A stretch of DNA of 64,000 nucleotides, taken from Flagellimonas alvinocaridis (GTDB lineage Bacteria; Bacteroidota; Bacteroidia; Flavobacteriales; Flavobacteriaceae). The translations under genes and the position numbers were made by a program. The stretch's first letter is position 1. The number at the start of each line of letters is the position of its first letter. Below, piece by piece: positions 35,948 through 43,541 of the stretch. The notes beneath the pieces were generated by a model, which saw only the letters and a program-made list of their open reading frames with translations, had not been told where the DNA came from and did not search any database. The stretch lies in contig NZ_SNTZ01000004.1 of NCBI RefSeq assembly GCF_004916895.1, positions 1 to 64,000 on the forward strand. Reading direction: 5' to 3'.

Positions 35948-36520
35948 ATGAAAAAGACAATTTTAAGCTTGGTATTGACCACGTTCATTGGTGCTTCCAC
36001 AATGGCAAATCCTATTGAAAAAGAAACCAAAACCGTTAAGGCCGAAGAAAGCAAAGTAACCTGGAAAGCATACAAGGTTGCCGGTTCCCATACCGGAACC
36101 GTAAAATTGCAATCCGGTGCCTTGGAATTTGACGGCGACAAACTGGTAGGCGGTGAGTTTGTAGTGGACATGACCTCTATAAATACCACTGACCTGGAAG
36201 GCGACTATAAGAACAAATTGGACGGACACTTAAGTTCGGCTGATTTCTTTTCCACTGAAAATAATCCAACATCAAAATTAGTGTTCACCAAAGTAAAATC
36301 CTCGGGAAAAAATAGCTATGAAGTTACTGGTGACCTAACCATAAAAGGCATTACAAAGCCTGTTACTTTTGATGTATCTGTTTATGGAAGCAAAGCCACT
36401 GCCACTTTGAAAGTAGATAGGACCAAGTACGACATCAAGTACAGCTCTGGTCTTATTGGCACAGCAAAGGACAAATTGATTTATGATGAATTTGATTTGG
36501 TAGTTGATTTGCAGATGTAA
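35948..36520 (+). CDS. YceI family periplasmic lipid-binding protein
   Basis: 190 residues with a signal peptide (MKKTILSLVLTTFIGASTMA). The YceI lipocalin-like fold is shown by KVTWKAYKVAGSHTGTVKLQ, MTSINTTDLEGDYKNKLDGH, LTIKGITKPVTFDVSV and TLKVDRTKYDIKYSSG. Family members bind isoprenoid or quinone-like lipids. Its place after a nitroreductase suggests a shared quinone or stress role under MarR control. Confidence 0.94.
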   Translation: MKKTILSLVLTTFIGASTMANPIEKETKTVKAEESKVTWKAYKVAGSHTGTVKLQSGALEFDGDKLVGGEFVVDMTSINTTDLEGDYKNKLDGHLSSADFFSTENNPTSKLVFTKVKSSGKNSYEVTGDLTIKGITKPVTFDVSVYGSKATATLKVDRTKYDIKYSSGLIGTAKDKLIYDEFDLVVDLQM

Positions 36521-36540
36521 TCAGCTCCTGTTTAGTGTGT

Positions 36541-36577
36541 GGGAATCCCGTTTAAGACTGTCTTGGACGGGATTTCC
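36541..36577 (+). terminator. Terminator-like long hairpin after yceI
   Basis: GGGAATCCCGTTTAAGAC pairs with GTCTTGGACGGGATTTCC over up to 18 bp, with two or three G-U pairs and an AT-rich trailer. It insulates the trp promoter from the marR unit. Confidence 0.75.
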
Positions 36578-36597
36578 AATTTTAAAACAAATCTTTG

Positions 36598-36628
36598 TTT
36601 GCTGGTTAAATTTTCCTTTCTATATTTG
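36598..36628 (+). promoter_or_regulatory. trp operon promoter (TTTG-N19-TATATTTG)
   Basis: TTTG (36598-36601), a 19-bp spacer and TATATTTG (36621-36628): an exact consensus match in both boxes and spacing. The -7 box ends 5 bp before the leader-peptide ATG, so transcription should start at or next to that ATG. Confidence 0.85.
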
Positions 36629-36633
36629 AAGCA

Positions 36634-36690
36634 ATGAATCACAGAATTGCAAATACTTGGTGGTGGATCAACTTACTTCGAAAGTCGTGA
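36634..36690 (+). CDS. trpL: trp operon leader peptide (three consecutive Trp codons)
   Basis: 18 codons, MNHRIANTWWWINLLRKS, stop TGA at 36688-36690. Three adjacent TGG codons (36658-36666), extreme shortness, a perfect promoter before it and a terminator after it identify a tryptophan attenuation leader. Charged tRNA-Trp lets the ribosome reach the stop and mask 36684-36690, so the terminator forms; Trp starvation stalls it at TGG and lets that segment form the antiterminator. No Shine-Dalgarno is present, and the mRNA may start at this AUG. Confidence 0.9.
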   Translation: MNHRIANTWWWINLLRKS

Positions 36691-36745
36691 GCTAAGTCCC
36701 CATTATAACCATACAAGAGGCTTGTCATCACGACAGGCCTTTTTT
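36684..36745 (+). terminator. trp attenuator: antiterminator arm and intrinsic terminator
   Basis: Terminator: AGGCTTGTC (36718-36726), loop ATCAC, GACAGGCCT (36732-36740), then T5. Antiterminator: GTCGTGA at 36684-36690, overlapping the leader stop codon, is fully complementary to TCACGAC at 36728-36734. That segment covers the loop and the 3' arm, so the two structures exclude each other. Confidence 0.88.
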
Positions 36746-36763
36746 AATTTATAACAGTTTAAG

Positions 36764-38158
36764 ATGTATAAACTTCAAACCCATTACAAAAAAATCCTGG
36801 CAGACACCATTACCCCGGTGAGCGTCTACCTGAAAATTCGGGACAAGTTCCCCAACAGCATCCTTTTGGAAAGTAGCGATTACCATGCCAACGACAACAG
36901 TTTTTCATATATCTGCTGCAATCCCATTGCCTACATCAAAGTGGAAAATGAAACCATTACCCAAAGGTTTCCTGACGGTTCCAAAGATATTACCCCGATC
37001 ACACCCGAAACCGATGTCACCGAGGTGATACACCACTTCGGACAGCAATTTTCGGTGACCCAAAACGGGTTCAAGTTTATATACAATGGTCTTTTTGGCT
37101 ATATGGCCTACGATGCAGTCCGCTATTTTGAGGATGTAGAGATCTCGAAAAAGGAGGATTCTGTCAGCATCCCGGATATTTACTACGCCGTATATCAGAA
37201 CATCATTGCCATAAACCACTTTAAGAACGAAGCCTATCTTTTTGCCCATTGCTACAATACCCAAAGCAATGTGGATGAGATAGAACAGCTTTTCAATGTT
37301 CGGAACTTCGCCTCCTACAATTTCACCAAGGAAGGCGAACCCAAATCCAACCTAAAGGACGAAGAGTATAAGGCCCATGTGGAGCTGGCCAAAAAGCACT
37401 GTCAGCGTGGGGATGTGTTCCAATTGGTATTGTCCCGAAGGTTCACCCAAAAATTCAAAGGGGACGAATTCAATGTATACCGGGCACTACGTTCCATTAA
37501 CCCCTCCCCTTACCTCTTCTATTTTGATTATGGCAACTTTAAGATCTTTGGCAGCTCGCCCGAAGCACAATTGATCGTAAAGGACGGCAAAGCCGAAATC
37601 CATCCCATTGCCGGCACCTACAAACGAACCGGAAATGATGAAAAAGACGCCGAACTGGCCAAACAATTGGCCCAGGACAATAAGGAAAATAGCGAGCATG
37701 TGATGTTGGTAGATTTGGCCCGTAACGATCTCAGTCGCAATGGAAATACCGTAAATGTGGACACGTATCGGGAGGTGCAGTATTTCTCACATGTAATCCA
37801 TTTGGTGTCGAAGGTCACCGCGGAAAAAAAACAGGACATCACCACCATGAAAGTAGTGGCCGATACCTTCCCTGCGGGAACCTTGAGTGGTGCGCCCAAA
37901 CATATGGCCATGCAACTCATTGAAAAATATGAAAAAACAAGTAGGGCCTATTATGGTGGTGCCATTGGCTTTATGGATTTCAAGGGCAATTTTAACCATG
38001 CCATCATGATCCGCACCTTTTTGAGCAAAAACCATGAACTGCACTACCAGGCTGGTGCAGGATTGGTAGCTGCTTCCAACCCGGACGACGAATTACAAGA
38101 GACCTATAACAAATTGGGCGCATTGAACAAAGCCCTTGAAATTGCAGAAACCATCTGA
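36764..38158 (+). CDS. trpE: Anthranilate synthase component I
   Basis: 464 residues. Motifs: LLESSDYH (about 34-41, the LLES element that binds feedback-inhibiting Trp), GDVFQLVLSRRF, IHPIAGTYKRTG, LVDLARNDLSR, FPAGTLSGAPK and GGAIGFMDFKGNFNHAIMIR. It makes anthranilate from chorismate using ammonia or TrpG-supplied glutamine nitrogen. First structural gene after the attenuator; trpG follows after 2 bp. Confidence 0.97.
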   Translation: MYKLQTHYKKILADTITPVSVYLKIRDKFPNSILLESSDYHANDNSFSYICCNPIAYIKVENETITQRFPDGSKDITPITPETDVTEVIHHFGQQFSVTQNGFKFIYNGLFGYMAYDAVRYFEDVEISKKEDSVSIPDIYYAVYQNIIAINHFKNEAYLFAHCYNTQSNVDEIEQLFNVRNFASYNFTKEGEPKSNLKDEEYKAHVELAKKHCQRGDVFQLVLSRRFTQKFKGDEFNVYRALRSINPSPYLFYFDYGNFKIFGSSPEAQLIVKDGKAEIHPIAGTYKRTGNDEKDAELAKQLAQDNKENSEHVMLVDLARNDLSRNGNTVNVDTYREVQYFSHVIHLVSKVTAEKKQDITTMKVVADTFPAGTLSGAPKHMAMQLIEKYEKTSRAYYGGAIGFMDFKGNFNHAIMIRTFLSKNHELHYQAGAGLVAASNPDDELQETYNKLGALNKALEIAETI

Positions 38159-38160
38159 TC

Positions 38161-38730
38161 ATGGGAAGAAAGATTTTAATGATAGACAACTACGATAGCT
38201 TCACCTATAACTTGGTGCACTATCTTGAAGATTTGGATTGTGAGGTCACTGTAAAACGGAACGATCAGCTCACTTTGGAGGAAGTGGAACCCTTTGACCT
38301 TATAGTATTGTCTCCTGGACCCGGGATTCCAGATGAAGCCGGACTGCTCAAGGAAATTATCAAGACCTACTCCCCTACCAAACGGATTTTTGGGGTGTGT
38401 CTGGGGCAACAGGCCATCGGTGAAGTGTTTGGAGGAAGCTTGATCAACCTCGATCAAGTTTACCACGGAGTGGCCACCACCATCACGGTGACCCAAGACG
38501 ACCCAATTTATAAAGGATTGCCCAAAGAACTCCAAGTAGGGAGGTACCATTCTTGGGTAGTGGACCCCAATCTACCCGAGGAACTGGAAACCACATCGGT
38601 GGATGAAAACGGACAAATCATGTCGCTTCGTCATAAAAAGTACGATGTGACCGCCGTACAGTTTCACCCGGAGTCCGTACTGACACCAGAAGGAAAACAA
38701 ATGCTAAAAAATTGGTTGGATAGCAAATAG
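38161..38730 (+). CDS. trpG: Anthranilate synthase component II (glutamine amidotransferase)
   Basis: 189 residues. Class I glutamine amidotransferase triad: Cys80 in FGVCLGQQAIGE and His/Glu in QFHPESVLT (about 168-171). Oxyanion motif SPGPGIPDE. Supplies ammonia to TrpE; the 2-bp gap suggests coupled translation for a 1:1 complex. Confidence 0.97.
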   Translation: MGRKILMIDNYDSFTYNLVHYLEDLDCEVTVKRNDQLTLEEVEPFDLIVLSPGPGIPDEAGLLKEIIKTYSPTKRIFGVCLGQQAIGEVFGGSLINLDQVYHGVATTITVTQDDPIYKGLPKELQVGRYHSWVVDPNLPEELETTSVDENGQIMSLRHKKYDVTAVQFHPESVLTPEGKQMLKNWLDSK

Positions 38731-38800
38731 ATTTGAGATATGGGATTTTGGTAGTGAGAAGCATTTCAATACTCACTTCTAATATCTAAATACTAAAAGA
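38731..38800 (+). repeat. AT-rich imperfect inverted repeat in the trpG-trpD spacer
   Basis: AGTGAG (38753-38758) pairs with CTCACT (38772-38777), and AGATAT pairs with ATATCT outside it. It ends in the tract TAATATCTAAATACTAAAAG just before trpD. It resembles the TCTCACATCTCAAATCTC tract before trpA. Confidence 0.5.
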
Positions 38801-39796
38801 ATGAAAGAGACATTAAATAAACTTATCAATCACGAGATACTGCCCAAGGAAGAGGCCAAACAGATTTTGGTGAATATTGCCAAAGGCGATTACAACACCT
38901 CTCAAATTGCGGCATTCCTTACCGTGTATATGATGCGAAGCATCACCATTGAAGAACTGGAAGGCTTCCGGGATGCCCTCTTGGAACTTTGTCTGGCCGT
39001 GGATTTATCCGATTACGACCCCATCGACCTTTGTGGAACTGGCGGTGATGGTAAGGACACCTTCAACATCTCCACACTGGCTTCATTTGTAACAGCCGGA
39101 GCCAGCGTAAAAGTGACCAAGCATGGCAATTATGGAGTTTCCTCAAAATGCGGGAGCAGTAATGTGATGGAATTCCTGGGCATCAAGTTCAGTAATGAGG
39201 CCGATTTCTTGAAGAAATCCATTGAGGAAGCGGGTATTTGTGTGCTGCATGCCCCTTTGTTCCACCCCGCCATGAAAAATGTGGCCCCCATCCGAAGGGA
39301 ACTGGCCGTAAAGACCTTTTTCAATATGTTGGGCCCCATGGTGAATCCCGCTTTTCCAAAAAATCAAATGGTGGGTGTGTTTAATTTAGAGTTGGCCAGA
39401 ATGTACGGATACCTTTATCAGAATACTGATAAAAAATTCACGGTACTCCATGCCTTGGACGGGTATGACGAAATTTCCTTGACTGGAGACACCAAAACCA
39501 TTTCCAACAACACCGAGGCCATGCTAAGCCCAAGTGACTTTGGGGTTGATAAAATTTCCCAAAAAGACATCACCGGAGGTGAGGACATTGCGGCATCAGC
39601 ACAGATATTTTTGAATGTATTGAATGGCAAGGGCACCGAAGCACAGAACAATGTGGTCTGCGCCAATGCCGGAGTGGCCATTGCCACCGTGGAAAGTATT
39701 ACCCCAAAAGCCGGCTTTGAAAAAGCCAAGGAAGCTCTGTTGGGTGGTAAGGGATTGGAAGCTTTGAAAAAATTGCAGGAATTGAGTAAAAACTAG
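38801..39796 (+). CDS. trpD: Anthranilate phosphoribosyltransferase
   Basis: 331 residues. PRPP-binding GTGGDGKDTFNIST (about 79-92) and KHGNYGVSSKCGSSNVMEFLG are typical. Transfers phosphoribose to anthranilate, the second pathway step. Flanked on both sides by repeat-like spacers. Confidence 0.97.
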   Translation: MKETLNKLINHEILPKEEAKQILVNIAKGDYNTSQIAAFLTVYMMRSITIEELEGFRDALLELCLAVDLSDYDPIDLCGTGGDGKDTFNISTLASFVTAGASVKVTKHGNYGVSSKCGSSNVMEFLGIKFSNEADFLKKSIEEAGICVLHAPLFHPAMKNVAPIRRELAVKTFFNMLGPMVNPAFPKNQMVGVFNLELARMYGYLYQNTDKKFTVLHALDGYDEISLTGDTKTISNNTEAMLSPSDFGVDKISQKDITGGEDIAASAQIFLNVLNGKGTEAQNNVVCANAGVAIATVESITPKAGFEKAKEALLGGKGLEALKKLQELSKN

Positions 39797-39798
39797 CT

Positions 39799-39869
39799 GT
39801 CATTTCGAATGAATGTGAGACATCTCTACAAAAAAGATTTCTCAATCGCTTTGCTCATTTCGAAATGAC
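39799..39869 (+). repeat. Palindromic repeat element, trpD-trpC spacer
   Basis: 71 bp bounded by GTCATTTCGA and its exact reverse complement TCGAAATGAC; the interior includes GAGACATCTCT and AAGATTTCTCAATCGCTTTG. Same family as the elements at 40669-40760 and 41047-41118. Confidence 0.8.
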
Positions 39870-39881
39870 AAATAACAACTT

Positions 39882-40667
39882 ATGAACATTCTAGATAAAA
39901 TAGTAGCCGATAAACGCAAGGAGGTCGATTTGAAAAGATCATTGATCACCCCTTCACAATTAGAGCAATCCGTATTGATGGAACGCACTTCTGCCTCCTT
40001 GGCCACAGCCTTGCGAAACAGTACCACAGGCATCATCGCGGAACACAAACGACGTTCCCCTTCCAAATCGGTCATCAACCAAGGTCTGAATGTACAGGAC
40101 GTGGCCACGGGATATGAAATGGCCGGTGTATGCGGCATGTCGGTTTTGACCGATGGCAAATATTTTGGGGGCTCCTTGGACGACTTGATCTTGGCCCGTG
40201 CTGCGGTGAACATCCCCCTGCTTCGCAAAGAGTTCATTATTGACGAATACCAGATATTGGAGGCCAAGGCCCATGGTGCCGACGTGATTTTGCTGATTGC
40301 GGCCATTTTAGACCGGAAAGAAATCAAAACCTTTTCGGAAATGGCAAAAAGTTTCGGCTTGGATGTACTATTGGAAGTACACAATGAAGAAGAACTGCAA
40401 AAATCCATCATGCCCAGCTTGGACATGCTTGGGGTAAACAATCGGAACCTAAAAACCTTTGAAGTAAGCTTGGAAACCAGCAAATCCCTTTCGGAACAGA
40501 TTCCCAGTGATTTTGTAAAGGTTTCTGAAAGCGGCATCAGTTCTGTGGAAGCCATAAAGGACCTGCAAACCTATGGTTACCAAGGTTTTTTAATTGGGGA
40601 GAATTTCATGAAAACGGATGATCCTGGAAAGAGTGCAAAGGAATTTATAAATGAATTAAATAGATAA
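39882..40667 (+). CDS. trpC: Indole-3-glycerol-phosphate synthase
   Basis: 261 residues, free-standing (not fused to TrpF). TIM-barrel motifs: IIAEHKRRSPSKSVIN (catalytic Lys), SVLTDGKYFGGS, LLRKEFIIDEYQILEAKAHG (catalytic Lys/Glu region), LGVNNRNLKTFEV and VSESGISS. Ring closure and decarboxylation of CdRP. Confidence 0.97.
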   Translation: MNILDKIVADKRKEVDLKRSLITPSQLEQSVLMERTSASLATALRNSTTGIIAEHKRRSPSKSVINQGLNVQDVATGYEMAGVCGMSVLTDGKYFGGSLDDLILARAAVNIPLLRKEFIIDEYQILEAKAHGADVILLIAAILDRKEIKTFSEMAKSFGLDVLLEVHNEEELQKSIMPSLDMLGVNNRNLKTFEVSLETSKSLSEQIPSDFVKVSESGISSVEAIKDLQTYGYQGFLIGENFMKTDDPGKSAKEFINELNR

Positions 40668-40668
40668 G

Positions 40669-40760
40669 GTTATTTCGAACTGTCAGATTGAGCGCAGTCG
40701 AAATCAAAGTGAGAAGTCTGATCTGAGATTCCTCCATCACTTCGCTGATATCGGAATGAC
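40669..40760 (+). repeat. Palindromic repeat element, trpC-trpF spacer
   Basis: 92 bp bounded by GTTATTTCGA and TCGGAATGAC (near-perfect inverted ends). The interior contains TTGAGCGCAGTCGAAAT, the same core as the element inside trpF, and a degraded partner CACTTCGCTGATATC. Confidence 0.8.
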
Positions 40761-40774
40761 AAAAAAATTGAACT

Positions 40775-41470
40775 ATGAAACTAAAGGTCTGCGGCATGAA
40801 CCAAAATCCCCTTGAGGTGGCCCAATTGCAACCCGACTATCTGGGTTTCATTTTTTGGGAACCTTCCTCGCGCGCCTTTGAAGGTGAACTGCCAAACCTG
40901 TCCAAGTCCATCAAAAAAGTAGGGGTTTTTGTGGATGCACCTTTGGAGGAAGTTTTGGAAAAAGTTGCACAATATCAATTGGATGCCGTACAACTTCATG
41001 GCAAGGAAAGTGTTGCTTATTGCGAGGAATTAAAATCCAACTTTTTGTCATTTCGAGCGCAGTCGAGAAATAAAAAAGTATCCGATAAAAATGAGGTCTC
41101 GACTGCGCTCGACCTGACAGGTATGGACATCATCAAGGTTTTTTCCATCAAGGACAATTTTGATTTCTCCATTTTGAAAGCGTACGAAGCGGTATGCGAT
41201 TATTTCCTGTTCGACACCAAAGGAAAGCTTCCCGGTGGGAACGGTTATACCTTTGACTGGTCCATCTTGGAAAACTATCCATCTACCCAACCTTTCTTTT
41301 TAAGTGGAGGCATTGGTTTGGAATCCGTTGAAAAATTGAAAGAATTCATGAACAGTCCGGCCTCAACATACTGTTACGCCATCGATGTCAACAGTAAATT
41401 TGAATTGGAACCCGGACGAAAAGATATCACAACATTGAAAGTGTTTCAAGAATCACTTTCTGAATTTTAA
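40775..41470 (+). CDS. trpF: Phosphoribosylanthranilate isomerase carrying an in-frame repeat insertion
   Basis: 231 residues; family members are usually about 200-215. Catalytic Cys6 in KVCGMN and Asp in AIDVNSKFELEPGRKD are kept, as are LGFIFWEPSSRAF and VQLHGKES. Residues 91-115, LSFRAQSRNKKVSDKNEVST plus ALDLT, come from a 72-bp palindromic element (41047-41118). The insertion falls between the helix after VQLHG and the strand DIIKVFSI, a surface loop in the TIM barrel. The frame is intact, so the enzyme is probably active. Confidence 0.94.
   Translation: MKLKVCGMNQNPLEVAQLQPDYLGFIFWEPSSRAFEGELPNLSKSIKKVGVFVDAPLEEVLEKVAQYQLDAVQLHGKESVAYCEELKSNFLSFRAQSRNKKVSDKNEVSTALDLTGMDIIKVFSIKDNFDFSILKAYEAVCDYFLFDTKGKLPGGNGYTFDWSILENYPSTQPFFLSGGIGLESVEKLKEFMNSPASTYCYAIDVNSKFELEPGRKDITTLKVFQESLSEF
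41047..41118 (+). repeat. Palindromic repeat element inserted in frame in trpF
   Basis: 72 bp (24 codons) from GTCATTTCGA to CGACCTGAC. TCGAGCGCAGTCGAGA (41053-41068) is the exact reverse complement of TCTCGACTGCGCTCGA (41097-41112), a 16-bp perfect stem with an A-rich 28-base loop. Confidence 0.9.
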
Positions 41471-41532
41471 CCAAATAAACAATTGCCTAAAACAGGTAAT
41501 TGAGAATTGATAACTGATAATTGTAAATTGAT
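41471..41532 (+). repeat. AT-rich repeat-like trpF-trpB spacer
   Basis: CAATTGCCT and AGGTAATTG form an imperfect hairpin, followed by degenerate copies of AATTGATAACT up to the trpB start. No coding potential. Confidence 0.45.
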
Positions 41533-42714
41533 ATGAGCTATCACGCTGATGAAAGGGGTTATTACGGTGAGTTTGGGGGTGCCTATATCCCAGAAATGCT
41601 CTACCCCAATTGTGAGGAACTCCGGCAAAACTACCTCCGTATCATGGCGGAGCCTTCCTTTCAGGAAGAATTCCATCAATTGTTGAAGGATTATGTGGGC
41701 CGGCCAACCCCACTCTATTTTGCCAAACGCCTTTCCGAAAAATACAACACCAAAATCTACCTAAAACGGGAAGATTTATGCCATACTGGGGCACACAAAG
41801 TCAACAATACCATTGGTCAGATTTTGATGGCCAAAAAATTGGGCAAAAACCGAATCATTGCCGAGACCGGCGCAGGTCAGCATGGAGTGGCCACGGCCAC
41901 CGTCTGTGCACTGATGGGCATCAAGTGTGTGGTATACATGGGTGAGATTGATATTGCCCGACAAGCGCCCAATGTGGCTCGTATGAAAATGCTTGGGGCC
42001 GAAGTACGCCCCGCTCTATCAGGCAGCAGGACCCTTAAGGATGCCACCAACGAGGCTATCCGCGATTGGATCAACAACCCGGTGGACACCCATTACATCA
42101 TTGGTTCGGTGGTGGGACCCCACCCCTACCCAGATATGGTGGCCCGGTTTCAGTCCGTGATTTCCGAAGAGGTCAAATCCCAGCTTCTGGAAAAAGAAGG
42201 TCGTAAAAATCCAGACTATGTAGTGGCTTGTGTGGGCGGTGGAAGCAACGCCGCGGGGGCTTTCTATCATTACTTAGATGAGGCCGAGGTAGGTATCATT
42301 GCGGTTGAGGCCGCCGGTAAAGGCATCCATTCCGGGGAAAGTGCCGCCACCTCAGCACTTGGCAAAGTGGGTATCATCCATGGCAGTAAGACCTTACTGA
42401 TGCAAACCGCGGATGGACAGATTACCGAACCGTATTCCATTTCCGCTGGACTGGACTATCCGGGTGTTGGACCTCTGCATGCCCATTTATATGTTTCGGG
42501 AAGAGGTGAGTTTATTTCCATTACCGATGATGAGGCCATGAAGGCAGGATTGGGGCTCTGTGAGCTGGAAGGTATCATTCCTGCTATCGAGTCATCCCAC
42601 GCACTCGCCATTTTTGAGGATAGGAAGTTCAAAGAAGATGATGTTGTGGTGGTAAACCTATCTGGACGAGGCGATAAGGACCTACAGAATTACATAGATT
42701 ATTTTGGACTTTAG
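41533..42714 (+). CDS. trpB: Tryptophan synthase beta subunit
   Basis: 393 residues. PLP lysine Lys89 in [16 protein letters not shown], phosphate-binding loop [12 protein letters not shown], and [19 protein letters not shown]. Condenses indole with serine. Standard catalytic TrpB1 form. Confidence 0.98.
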
Positions 42715-42779
42715 ATGATAGACAGTAGAACCAAGACCTATTTTCACAATCTTATGTCTCACATCTCAAATCTCATTTT
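42715..42779 (+). repeat. AT-rich trpB-trpA spacer with TCTCACATCTCAAATCTC tract
   Basis: 65 bp after the trpB stop. It ends in GTCTCACATCTCAAATCTCA immediately before trpA, similar in style to the trpG-trpD spacer tail. No hairpin as strong as in the palindromic elements. Confidence 0.4.
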
Positions 42780-43541
42780 ATGAACAGAATCAAACAAAAA
42801 CTACAAGAGGATAAAAAGATTCTCTCCATCTATTTCACTGCAGGTTATCCCAAACTGGATGATACCGTAAAAATCATCCAAGATCTGGAGAAAAACGGGG
42901 TGGACCTTATTGAAATTGGATTGCCCTTTAGCGATCCCTTGGCGGATGGCCCTACCATTCAGGAAAGTTCAACCATTGCCCTTAAAAATGGCATGCATAC
43001 CGAACTACTCTTTGAGCAACTCAAGGATATAAGGGAAACCGTTTCCATCCCCTTGATCATCATGGGCTATTTCAATCCAATATTTCAATACGGCGTGGAG
43101 GCCTTTTGCCAAAAATGTAAGGACATAGGTATTGATGGGCTTATTTTGCCCGACCTACCGTTGGATGTGTACCAAGAGGAATACGAGACCATCTTTAAAA
43201 AATATGGATTGATCAATGTGTTTTTGATCACCCCCCAAACCGGTGAAGCACGGATCAGGGCCATTGACAAGGCTTCGGACGGATTTATTTATATGGTCAG
43301 TTCTGCCAGTACAACTGGGGCCAAATCGGGTTTTGGAGCTGAACAGACCCAATATTTTGACCGTGTCGCTGCAATGGAACTGAACAATCCCCAAATTGTG
43401 GGCTTTGGCATCAGCAATGCAGAAACCTTTGATCAGGCCACAAAAAACACCAAAGGAGCGATTATTGGTTCGGCCTTCATCAAACACTTGACCCAAAATG
43501 GAGTGGATCATATAAGTGATTTTGTAAATCAAATTCGTTAA
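42780..43541 (+). CDS. trpA: Tryptophan synthase alpha subunit
   Basis: 253 residues. Catalytic Glu45 in LIEIGLPFSDPLADGPTIQ and Asp56 in the same motif; phosphate-binding GFGISNAETF. Releases indole from indole-3-glycerol phosphate. Last gene of the trp operon. Confidence 0.97.
   Translation: MNRIKQKLQEDKKILSIYFTAGYPKLDDTVKIIQDLEKNGVDLIEIGLPFSDPLADGPTIQESSTIALKNGMHTELLFEQLKDIRETVSIPLIIMGYFNPIFQYGVEAFCQKCKDIGIDGLILPDLPLDVYQEEYETIFKKYGLINVFLITPQTGEARIRAIDKASDGFIYMVSSASTTGAKSGFGAEQTQYFDRVAAMELNNPQIVGFGISNAETFDQATKNTKGAIIGSAFIKHLTQNGVDHISDFVNQIR

Follow-up and report, generated by a model that had tools for sequence, protein, structure and literature searches.

What ensures that a ribosome loads in time on the leader peptide of an attenuator in a phylum without Shine-Dalgarno sites? 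Attenuation requires the ribosome to start on the leader in the brief interval before RNA polymerase gets to the terminator, and the trp leader of Flagellimonas alvinocaridis belongs to a family that addresses this question. We analyzed a window of 64,000 nt (contig NZ_SNTZ01000004.1, positions 1 to 64,000; all features described here lie on the forward strand), in which seven consecutive ORFs (36764–43541), named from their protein sequences, are presumably trpE, G, D, C, F, B, and A. The first gene of this putatively regulated operon, trpE (anthranilate synthase component I; 36764–38158 in the ORF list, with its ATG at 36764), has its closest named match in Allomuricauda sp. pb2 (99% identical), the nearest named relatives being Allomuricauda/Flagellimonas. 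Upstream of trpE, our analysis bears out what the first-pass annotation had described: a perfect Bacteroidota-type promoter, with a −33 element, TTTG (36598–36601), and, after a 19-nt spacer, the −7 box TATATTTG (36621–36628), both read directly and placed by script, followed by AAGCA and the ATG at 36634; an 18-codon leader peptide ORF, MNHRIANTWWWINLLRKS (36634–36690, TGA at 36688–36690), whose codons 9–11, again by direct reading and script, are three regulatory UGG (Trp) codons (36658–36666); and an intrinsic terminator with a U-tract (36715–36745), recovered by folding and, as 36715–36743 with 12 pairs, by a terminator scan. The trpE gene starts 19 nt past position 36745. Equally as described, GTCGTGA (36684–36690) over the leader stop codon is perfectly complementary to TCACGAC (36728–36734) in the terminator loop and 3′ arm. 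We consider it likely that this locus is a ribosome-mediated trp operon attenuator of the Bacteroid-trp type and that its leader peptide is read from an RNA with almost no 5′ leader. Comparison supports the leader, the pairing, the terminator, and the spacing; start site, stalling, ribosome footprint, timing, and regulatory outcome are what we infer.

The trp element itself is an already catalogued family. Rfam Bacteroid-trp (RF01692), which dates from Weinberg et al. 2010 (PMC2864571), matches positions 36614–36726 at 61.1 bits, over the curated gathering cut-off of 49, and the matched site lies upstream of Trp biosynthesis genes in a member of the Bacteroidota; the Trp-run leader ORF and the 1:2 hairpin are likewise common to family and locus. 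The model differs in that it opens with 20 positions that fall on the −7 box and spacer, DNA predicted to be untranscribed here, and in that it ends within the terminator 5′ arm, at AGGCUUGUC, without the terminator 3′ arm and the covarying antiterminator pair. Within the genus, 57 of 60 genomes have a match to RF01692, 50 of them over the cut-off; the corresponding figures are 109 of 149 for the family (95 over the cut-off) and 30 of 296 for genomes sampled across the phylum, 28 of these 30 belonging to the same family. A TrpE match was present in 148 of the 149 family genomes, some of these matches being merely distant paralogues.

Is it the leader peptide that senses tryptophan? Should a Trp-binding protein or a riboswitch read the RNA, the ORF would be incidental, a scenario that we regard as very improbable. 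The TGGTGG run is present in all 130 RF01692-match loci outside the genus (only two codons long in several) despite changing flanking residues, a count to be read in the light of the model having been built from sequences with a TGG run, so that its matches are biased towards such a run. A relative that keeps the hairpin and lacks the TGG run, the case that the first-pass annotation had named as speaking against attenuation, was not found among these 130 loci. Beyond the model's matches, 27 family genomes hold a good trpE match and no RF01692 match; in three of them trpE lies at a contig end, and 23 of the 24 upstream stretches that were read contain a short ORF in which two or more Trp codons follow one another (with exact TCGTGA near the ORF end in 12 of the 23, by eye), the remaining one, L311, having no Trp-run leader ORF upstream of trpE. 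Within the genus, Trp-run leaders occur in 57 of 57 loci. Moreover, hisG, pheA, and ilvD are preceded in many of the same genomes by leaders that carry runs of His, Phe, and Ile/Val codons, respectively, which likewise argues for reading by a ribosome.

The second pillar of the attenuator is the complementarity between leader end and terminator. For this region, the first-pass annotation had suggested an alignment to check for covariation of the two hairpins. We aligned 152 distinct loci with MAFFT (three from the genus retained). Of the 1063 cells in the seven GUCGUGA:UCACGAC columns, 922 hold standard pairs, a number that none of 1000 shuffles reached, and 13 cells are changed on both sides as compared to a shuffle mean of 2.45 (again reached by none of the 1000), while the 12 extra pair types were equalled by 12 of 1000 shuffles. 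The pairing thus covaries, and sliding the partner strand by one to three columns lets the paired cells fall to 9–52%. Might the complementarity nonetheless simply follow from conservation of the terminator or of the codons, rather than mark an antiterminator? Most rows are identical at the pairing positions, so that a minority of rows carries the covariation, and the 5′ arm, too, places a constraint on the terminator 3′ arm. In addition, a slide by −2 shows 19 double changes versus 13 in the true register, which weighs against the double-change measure, yet 34.6% of the cells pair in that register. Since many deviant rows pair in another register, we tested 34 such deviant rows independently of the columns: their own leader–terminator helices have an average score of 15.17, as compared to 13.02 for permuted partners (maximum 14.35 in 1000 permutations). 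Compensated changes yield helices in L134 (GUCGCAAU:AUUGCGAC), L289 (UCGCGA:UCGCGA), L293 (GGAUUCAG:CUGAAUCC), and L307 (ACCGGAU:AUCCGGU); L296, L085, and L315 were the deviant rows in which no good leader–terminator helix was found. Besides, TCGTGA is retained where the ORF ends earlier (L040, L051, and L143) or reads through in another frame (L035 and L048) and therefore appears to be kept as RNA, not as codons. In the face of these compensated and frame-independent cases, a by-product of conservation is decidedly unlikely, and an antiterminator is our preferred reading of the pairing.

Thermodynamic comparisons point in the same direction. Counting folds with at least six cross pairs in the stalled state did not discriminate real loci (152/152) from mononucleotide shuffles (519/760), so we used duplex energy instead. 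The leader–terminator duplex averages −13.25 kcal/mol over the 152 loci versus −7.21 for dinucleotide shuffles, and the real duplex is better than all 20 of its own shuffles in 105 of the 152. For the element of F. alvinocaridis, the RNA fold has a z-score of −3.41, with one of 200 shuffles equally good. In the minimum free energy fold, the UGG region pairs with GUCCCCAUUA to form the 1:2 (pause, or anti-antiterminator) hairpin (36658–36705), which corresponds to the consensus hairpin of RF01692 and whose inner arm, CUUAC, sequesters GUGAG. The stalled state was represented by a fold that begins at 36673, corresponding to a ribosome on the first Trp codon with an assumed footprint. With RNA up to 36738, the minimum of this fold is the antiterminator (−14.4 kcal/mol), whose 5′ strand (region 2; 36684–36700), composed of GUCGUGAG and UAAGUC, overlaps the leader stop codon, and whose 3′ strand (36717–36734) comprises the terminator 5′ arm, the loop, and the first three bases of the 3′ arm; covariation, folding, and duplex energy all place both strands here. 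An antiterminator consisting of the 7-bp GUCGUGA:UCACGAC helix alone was rejected, since in the fold for the stalled state this helix is joined by UAAGUC:GGCUUG pairs that involve the terminator 5′ arm. The covarying leader–terminator pairing as part of a larger antiterminator that includes this arm is hence supported, with the UAAGUC:GGCUUG portion predicted from folding. At the L002 locus, a GC-rich palindrome, TTTCCGCGAAGGCGGAAATC, lies 3′ of the terminator.

A run of Trp codons within a short ORF, and a terminator ahead of the first structural gene together with a mutually exclusive antiterminator, are what characterizes a ribosome-mediated attenuator, and all of these were found here, at the level of sequence and folding. 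The conserved Trp-run leader, the covarying antiterminator, and the terminator before trpE thereby lend support to ribosome-coupled Trp attenuation, which the first-pass annotation had proposed and which probably operates at this locus.

How would the element work? In our model, its working is the classical 1:2/2:3/3:4 logic, with region 2 placed over the leader stop codon. RNA polymerase would start at about 36633, and with the AUG at the RNA 5′ end, the first ribosome would have to load by a leaderless route. With ample charged tRNA-Trp, the ribosome would reach the UGA and cover region 2, allowing the terminator to form; in the folds, a ribosome at the stop codon leaves the terminator alone (−15.1 kcal/mol at 36741). 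When Trp is short, the ribosome would stall on the three UGG codons and block the 1:2 hairpin, and both segments of region 2 could pair with the terminator 5′ arm, the loop, and the start of the 3′ arm before the terminator is complete, upon which the polymerase would continue into trpE. In the stalled state at 36741, however, the finished terminator (−16.2) is slightly more stable than the antiterminator (−14.4), so that readthrough would have to be kinetic. Without any ribosome, the 1:2 hairpin would lock region 2 and termination would ensue; here, the folds show 1:2 hairpin and terminator to coexist (−29.8 at 36741). In the trp attenuator of E. coli (trpL), the ribosome stalls on Trp codons and thereby selects between alternative 1:2, 2:3, and 3:4 pairings. 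The flavobacterial element would resemble trpL in this mode of working, Trp-codon stall and alternative pairings alike. Unlike trpL, it has no room for a Shine-Dalgarno leader, its leader stop codon lies within one antiterminator strand, and the partner strand extends to the terminator loop and the start of the 3′ arm.

Where does the transcript begin? In F. psychrophilum, the −7 box is reported to span −12 to −5 (PMC9723704). Applied to the trp leader, this rule yields A36633 as the predicted transcription start, 1 base 5′ of the AUG, and hence a transcript 5′-A-AUG with a predicted 1-nt leader, a length that uses the box-to-start distance of another genus and may be in error by 2–3 nt. The first-pass annotation had RNA begin at about the AUG; the part that is supported is the very short predicted leader, whereas the predicted start is not the AUG itself. 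The same attenuator could, however, sit on a leadered transcript, if the start were shifted or lay at some other promoter more to the 5′ side, or if polymerase read through from the preceding gene, and TATATTTG were not the main box. This deserves some weight, as most mapped F. psychrophilum mRNAs are described as having leaders, with a median of 24 nt (PMC9723704), and gaps between box and AUG of 14–22 nt occur in 70 of 149 other loci, yet we consider it unlikely at the present locus. In 57 of 57 same-genus loci (30 best-scoring and 27 lower-scoring ones, seven of the latter below the Rfam cut-off), the best-scoring box lies 5 nt from the AUG, and these 5 nt take the form of 16 different 5-mers, indicating that gap length is kept while the bases drift. 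The box itself reads TATATTTG in 38 and TATCTTTG in 19 of the 57. An E. coli-type sigma-70 scan found no site within 36400–36900, a result of little weight in this phylum. An inverted repeat, GGAATCCCGT...ACGGGATTTCC (36541–36585), lies between the trp promoter and the gene before it; this repeat is a possible terminator by eye, absent from the terminator-scan output, and its stem might insulate the trp promoter from that gene. We conclude that the short predicted leader is constant in the genus and that near-leaderlessness is probably real.

Such a layout is unusual in the surrounding genome. On 324 kb of the same contig (both strands), there are 317 TAnnTTTG sites and ten perfect TTTG-N18–21-TAnnTTTG sites, the trp promoter being one of the ten, and from this background the chance of a TAnnTTTG box ending 4–8 nt before a given ATG is ~0.0024. 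Because perfect promoters gave only four matches upstream of 280 ORFs in the 324 kb, we adopted a looser, hand-made promoter score. A score of at least 9 was reached by 75 of the 280 ORFs, seven of which had a gap of 8 nt or less. This marks the near-leaderless layout as a minority type and matches published proportions, namely 5.5% leaderless mRNAs reported for F. psychrophilum (PMC9723704) and about 3.7% of 5′ UTRs shorter than 10 nt reported for B. thetaiotaomicron (PMC7366714).

Outside the genus, the gap varies. Among 149 loci, which include several of one genus, it measures 4–8 nt in 49, 9–12 nt in 21, 14–22 nt in 70, and other values in nine, some of the latter being mis-called starts. 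Left out of this count were L088 (second copy of a genome), L319 (not a trp locus), L311 (no leader), L320 (a short contig end, the second piece of the L060 genome), and L060, L101, L147, and L135. These last four have the TGG run and no in-frame ATG; by eye, their possible starts are TTG (gaps of 17, 22, and 17 nt) and GTG (gap of 5 nt), respectively. Of 80 named relatives chosen by trpE similarity, a set overlapping the main one, 71 carry the leader inside the 420 nt searched, with gaps of 4–8 nt in 69 and of 28 and 30 nt in two; in the remaining nine the leader lies further upstream, with gaps of 5 nt (eight) or 7 nt (one), by eye. Several named same-genus relatives (within L322–L363) have their Trp codons ~470–500 nt upstream of trpE.

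On a FastTree trpE phylogeny, both gap states are clustered (0 of 500 shuffles as low), and at least nine changes separate gaps of 4–8 from gaps of at least 13 nt. This tree holds 127 rows, after 22 of the 149 offered (three from the genus and 146 others) were dropped for having less than 150 aa of trpE; 55 of its 124 inner branches are weakly supported, and the change count leaves out 15 rows at gaps 9–12. With at least nine changes, a single origin of the near-leaderless state was rejected. Leadered loci often encode MNTILNNTWWW-like peptides, and near-leaderless ones are mostly without ILNN (L031–L147); N-terminal coding bases of trp leaders may differ by initiation mode.

Do other amino-acid leaders of the same genomes share the layout? 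We called his, phe, and ilv leaders by a rule blind to the box–AUG distance. In a first scan, His leader peptides (e.g., MRNKNVHHHFYTCSQAR) and a terminator precede hisG in 28 of 30 loci (L148–L177, with L160 from the genome studied here), and no His leader was found in the other two, L149 and L153. By eye, complementarity to the terminator 5′ arm is seen at the end of the his leader (CTCAAGCG with CGTTTGAG), and the pheA leader end likewise looks complementary to its own terminator 5′ arm. Gaps of 8 nt or less precede the his leader in six of 11 genomes with a trp gap of 4–8 nt versus none of 12 with a trp gap of at least 14 nt (Fisher p 0.0046, a guide only as the genomes are related). The his gaps of G089, G067, and G068, whose trp gap is 8 nt, were called at 19, 18, and 26 nt, respectively. 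In G070 the his gap was called at 35 nt, with the second-best box at 8 nt, and in G060 at 27 nt, measured to an AUG further upstream; by eye, the AUG that follows has a box 7 nt before it.

Phe leader peptides (e.g., MTTTYFWNRFYFYFFFQGGTGLL) and terminators precede pheA in many of 30 loci (L178–L207, with L178 from the genome studied here), their −7 box often being TACTTTAG-like. The phe gap is at least 12 nt in 10 of the 11 genomes with a trp gap of 4–8 nt (17–19 nt in nine), the exception being G063 at 7 nt. His leaders in genomes with a near-leaderless trp leader thus tend to be near-leaderless too, and phe leaders do not. In a candidate Ile/Val leader, MKRTILVNGVVIIVPNLE, upstream of ilvD in the genome studied here (L213), 4 nt separate the box TAACATTG from the AUG, and a terminator-like hairpin follows. 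The ilvD gaps measure 2–5 nt in five of nine genomes with a trp gap of 4–8 nt and a called ORF, several of these ORFs being doubtful, and 7 nt in two genomes with a trp gap of 18 nt; near-leaderless ilv leaders alongside trp are suggestive only.

These comparisons bear on the suggestion of the first-pass annotation that a leaderless leader peptide would be a way to guarantee ribosome loading in this phylum. We reject the view that a leaderless start is required for loading, given the gaps of 14–22 nt in the 70 loci and the mostly leadered phe leaders in the same genomes. Rather, the spread of trp gaps and the his/phe pattern characterize the near-leaderless layout as a clade trait common to some attenuators and dispensable for attenuation.

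Leaderless attenuator peptides have precedents in other phyla. In the Alphaproteobacterium Sinorhizobium meliloti, the rnTrpL RNA is reported to begin with the ATG of the 14-aa leader peptide peTrpL (PMC7298713); its 5′ end is a reported one, whereas that of the flavobacterial leader is predicted. In Actinobacteria, and thus in another phylum and for other amino acids, the short attenuator ORF of Corynebacterium glutamicum ilvBNC is treated as leaderless (PMC11857589), and polycysteine sORFs of mycobacteria have been described as leaderless attenuator ORFs. Predicted leaderless genes are reported to be frequent in Actinobacteria and rare in Bacteroidota. Closer to the present organism, leader-peptide attenuation in F. 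psychrophilum, of the same bacterial family, was raised by two papers after the original family description (PMC6414381, PMC9723704), the latter reporting strong clues for it upstream of amino-acid operons and describing 5′ elements of pheA and hisG as conserved. The genus g128, taken to be Flavobacterium, differs from the present one in having trp gaps mostly of 16–18 nt as compared to 5 nt here. Among the literature matches listed, titles and abstract openings contain no description of a leaderless attenuator leader peptide in Bacteroidota. With the family known, and leaderless leader peptides known in Sinorhizobium and Actinobacteria, what is new is probably the near-leaderless layout in this phylum, as predicted from genome comparison.

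What does this mean for the family? We tentatively propose, as a possibility that we rate somewhat below even, that in several Flavobacteriaceae lineages the trp, his, and perhaps ilv leader peptides, and not the phe ones, start at the RNA 5′ end, tying ribosome loading to promoter escape, and that orthologous trp attenuators have repeatedly gained or lost this arrangement. A further point concerns RF01692: both the antiterminator, which covaries, and the overlap with the promoter suggest that this model needs re-bounding. If our proposal is true, the family represents a natural experiment in a phylum without Shine-Dalgarno sites, one that asks whether the timing of ribosome–polymerase coupling is set by leaderless initiation. 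Orthologous near-leaderless and leadered attenuators, with the leadered phe attenuator as a control within the same cell, would make this testable by leader swapping.
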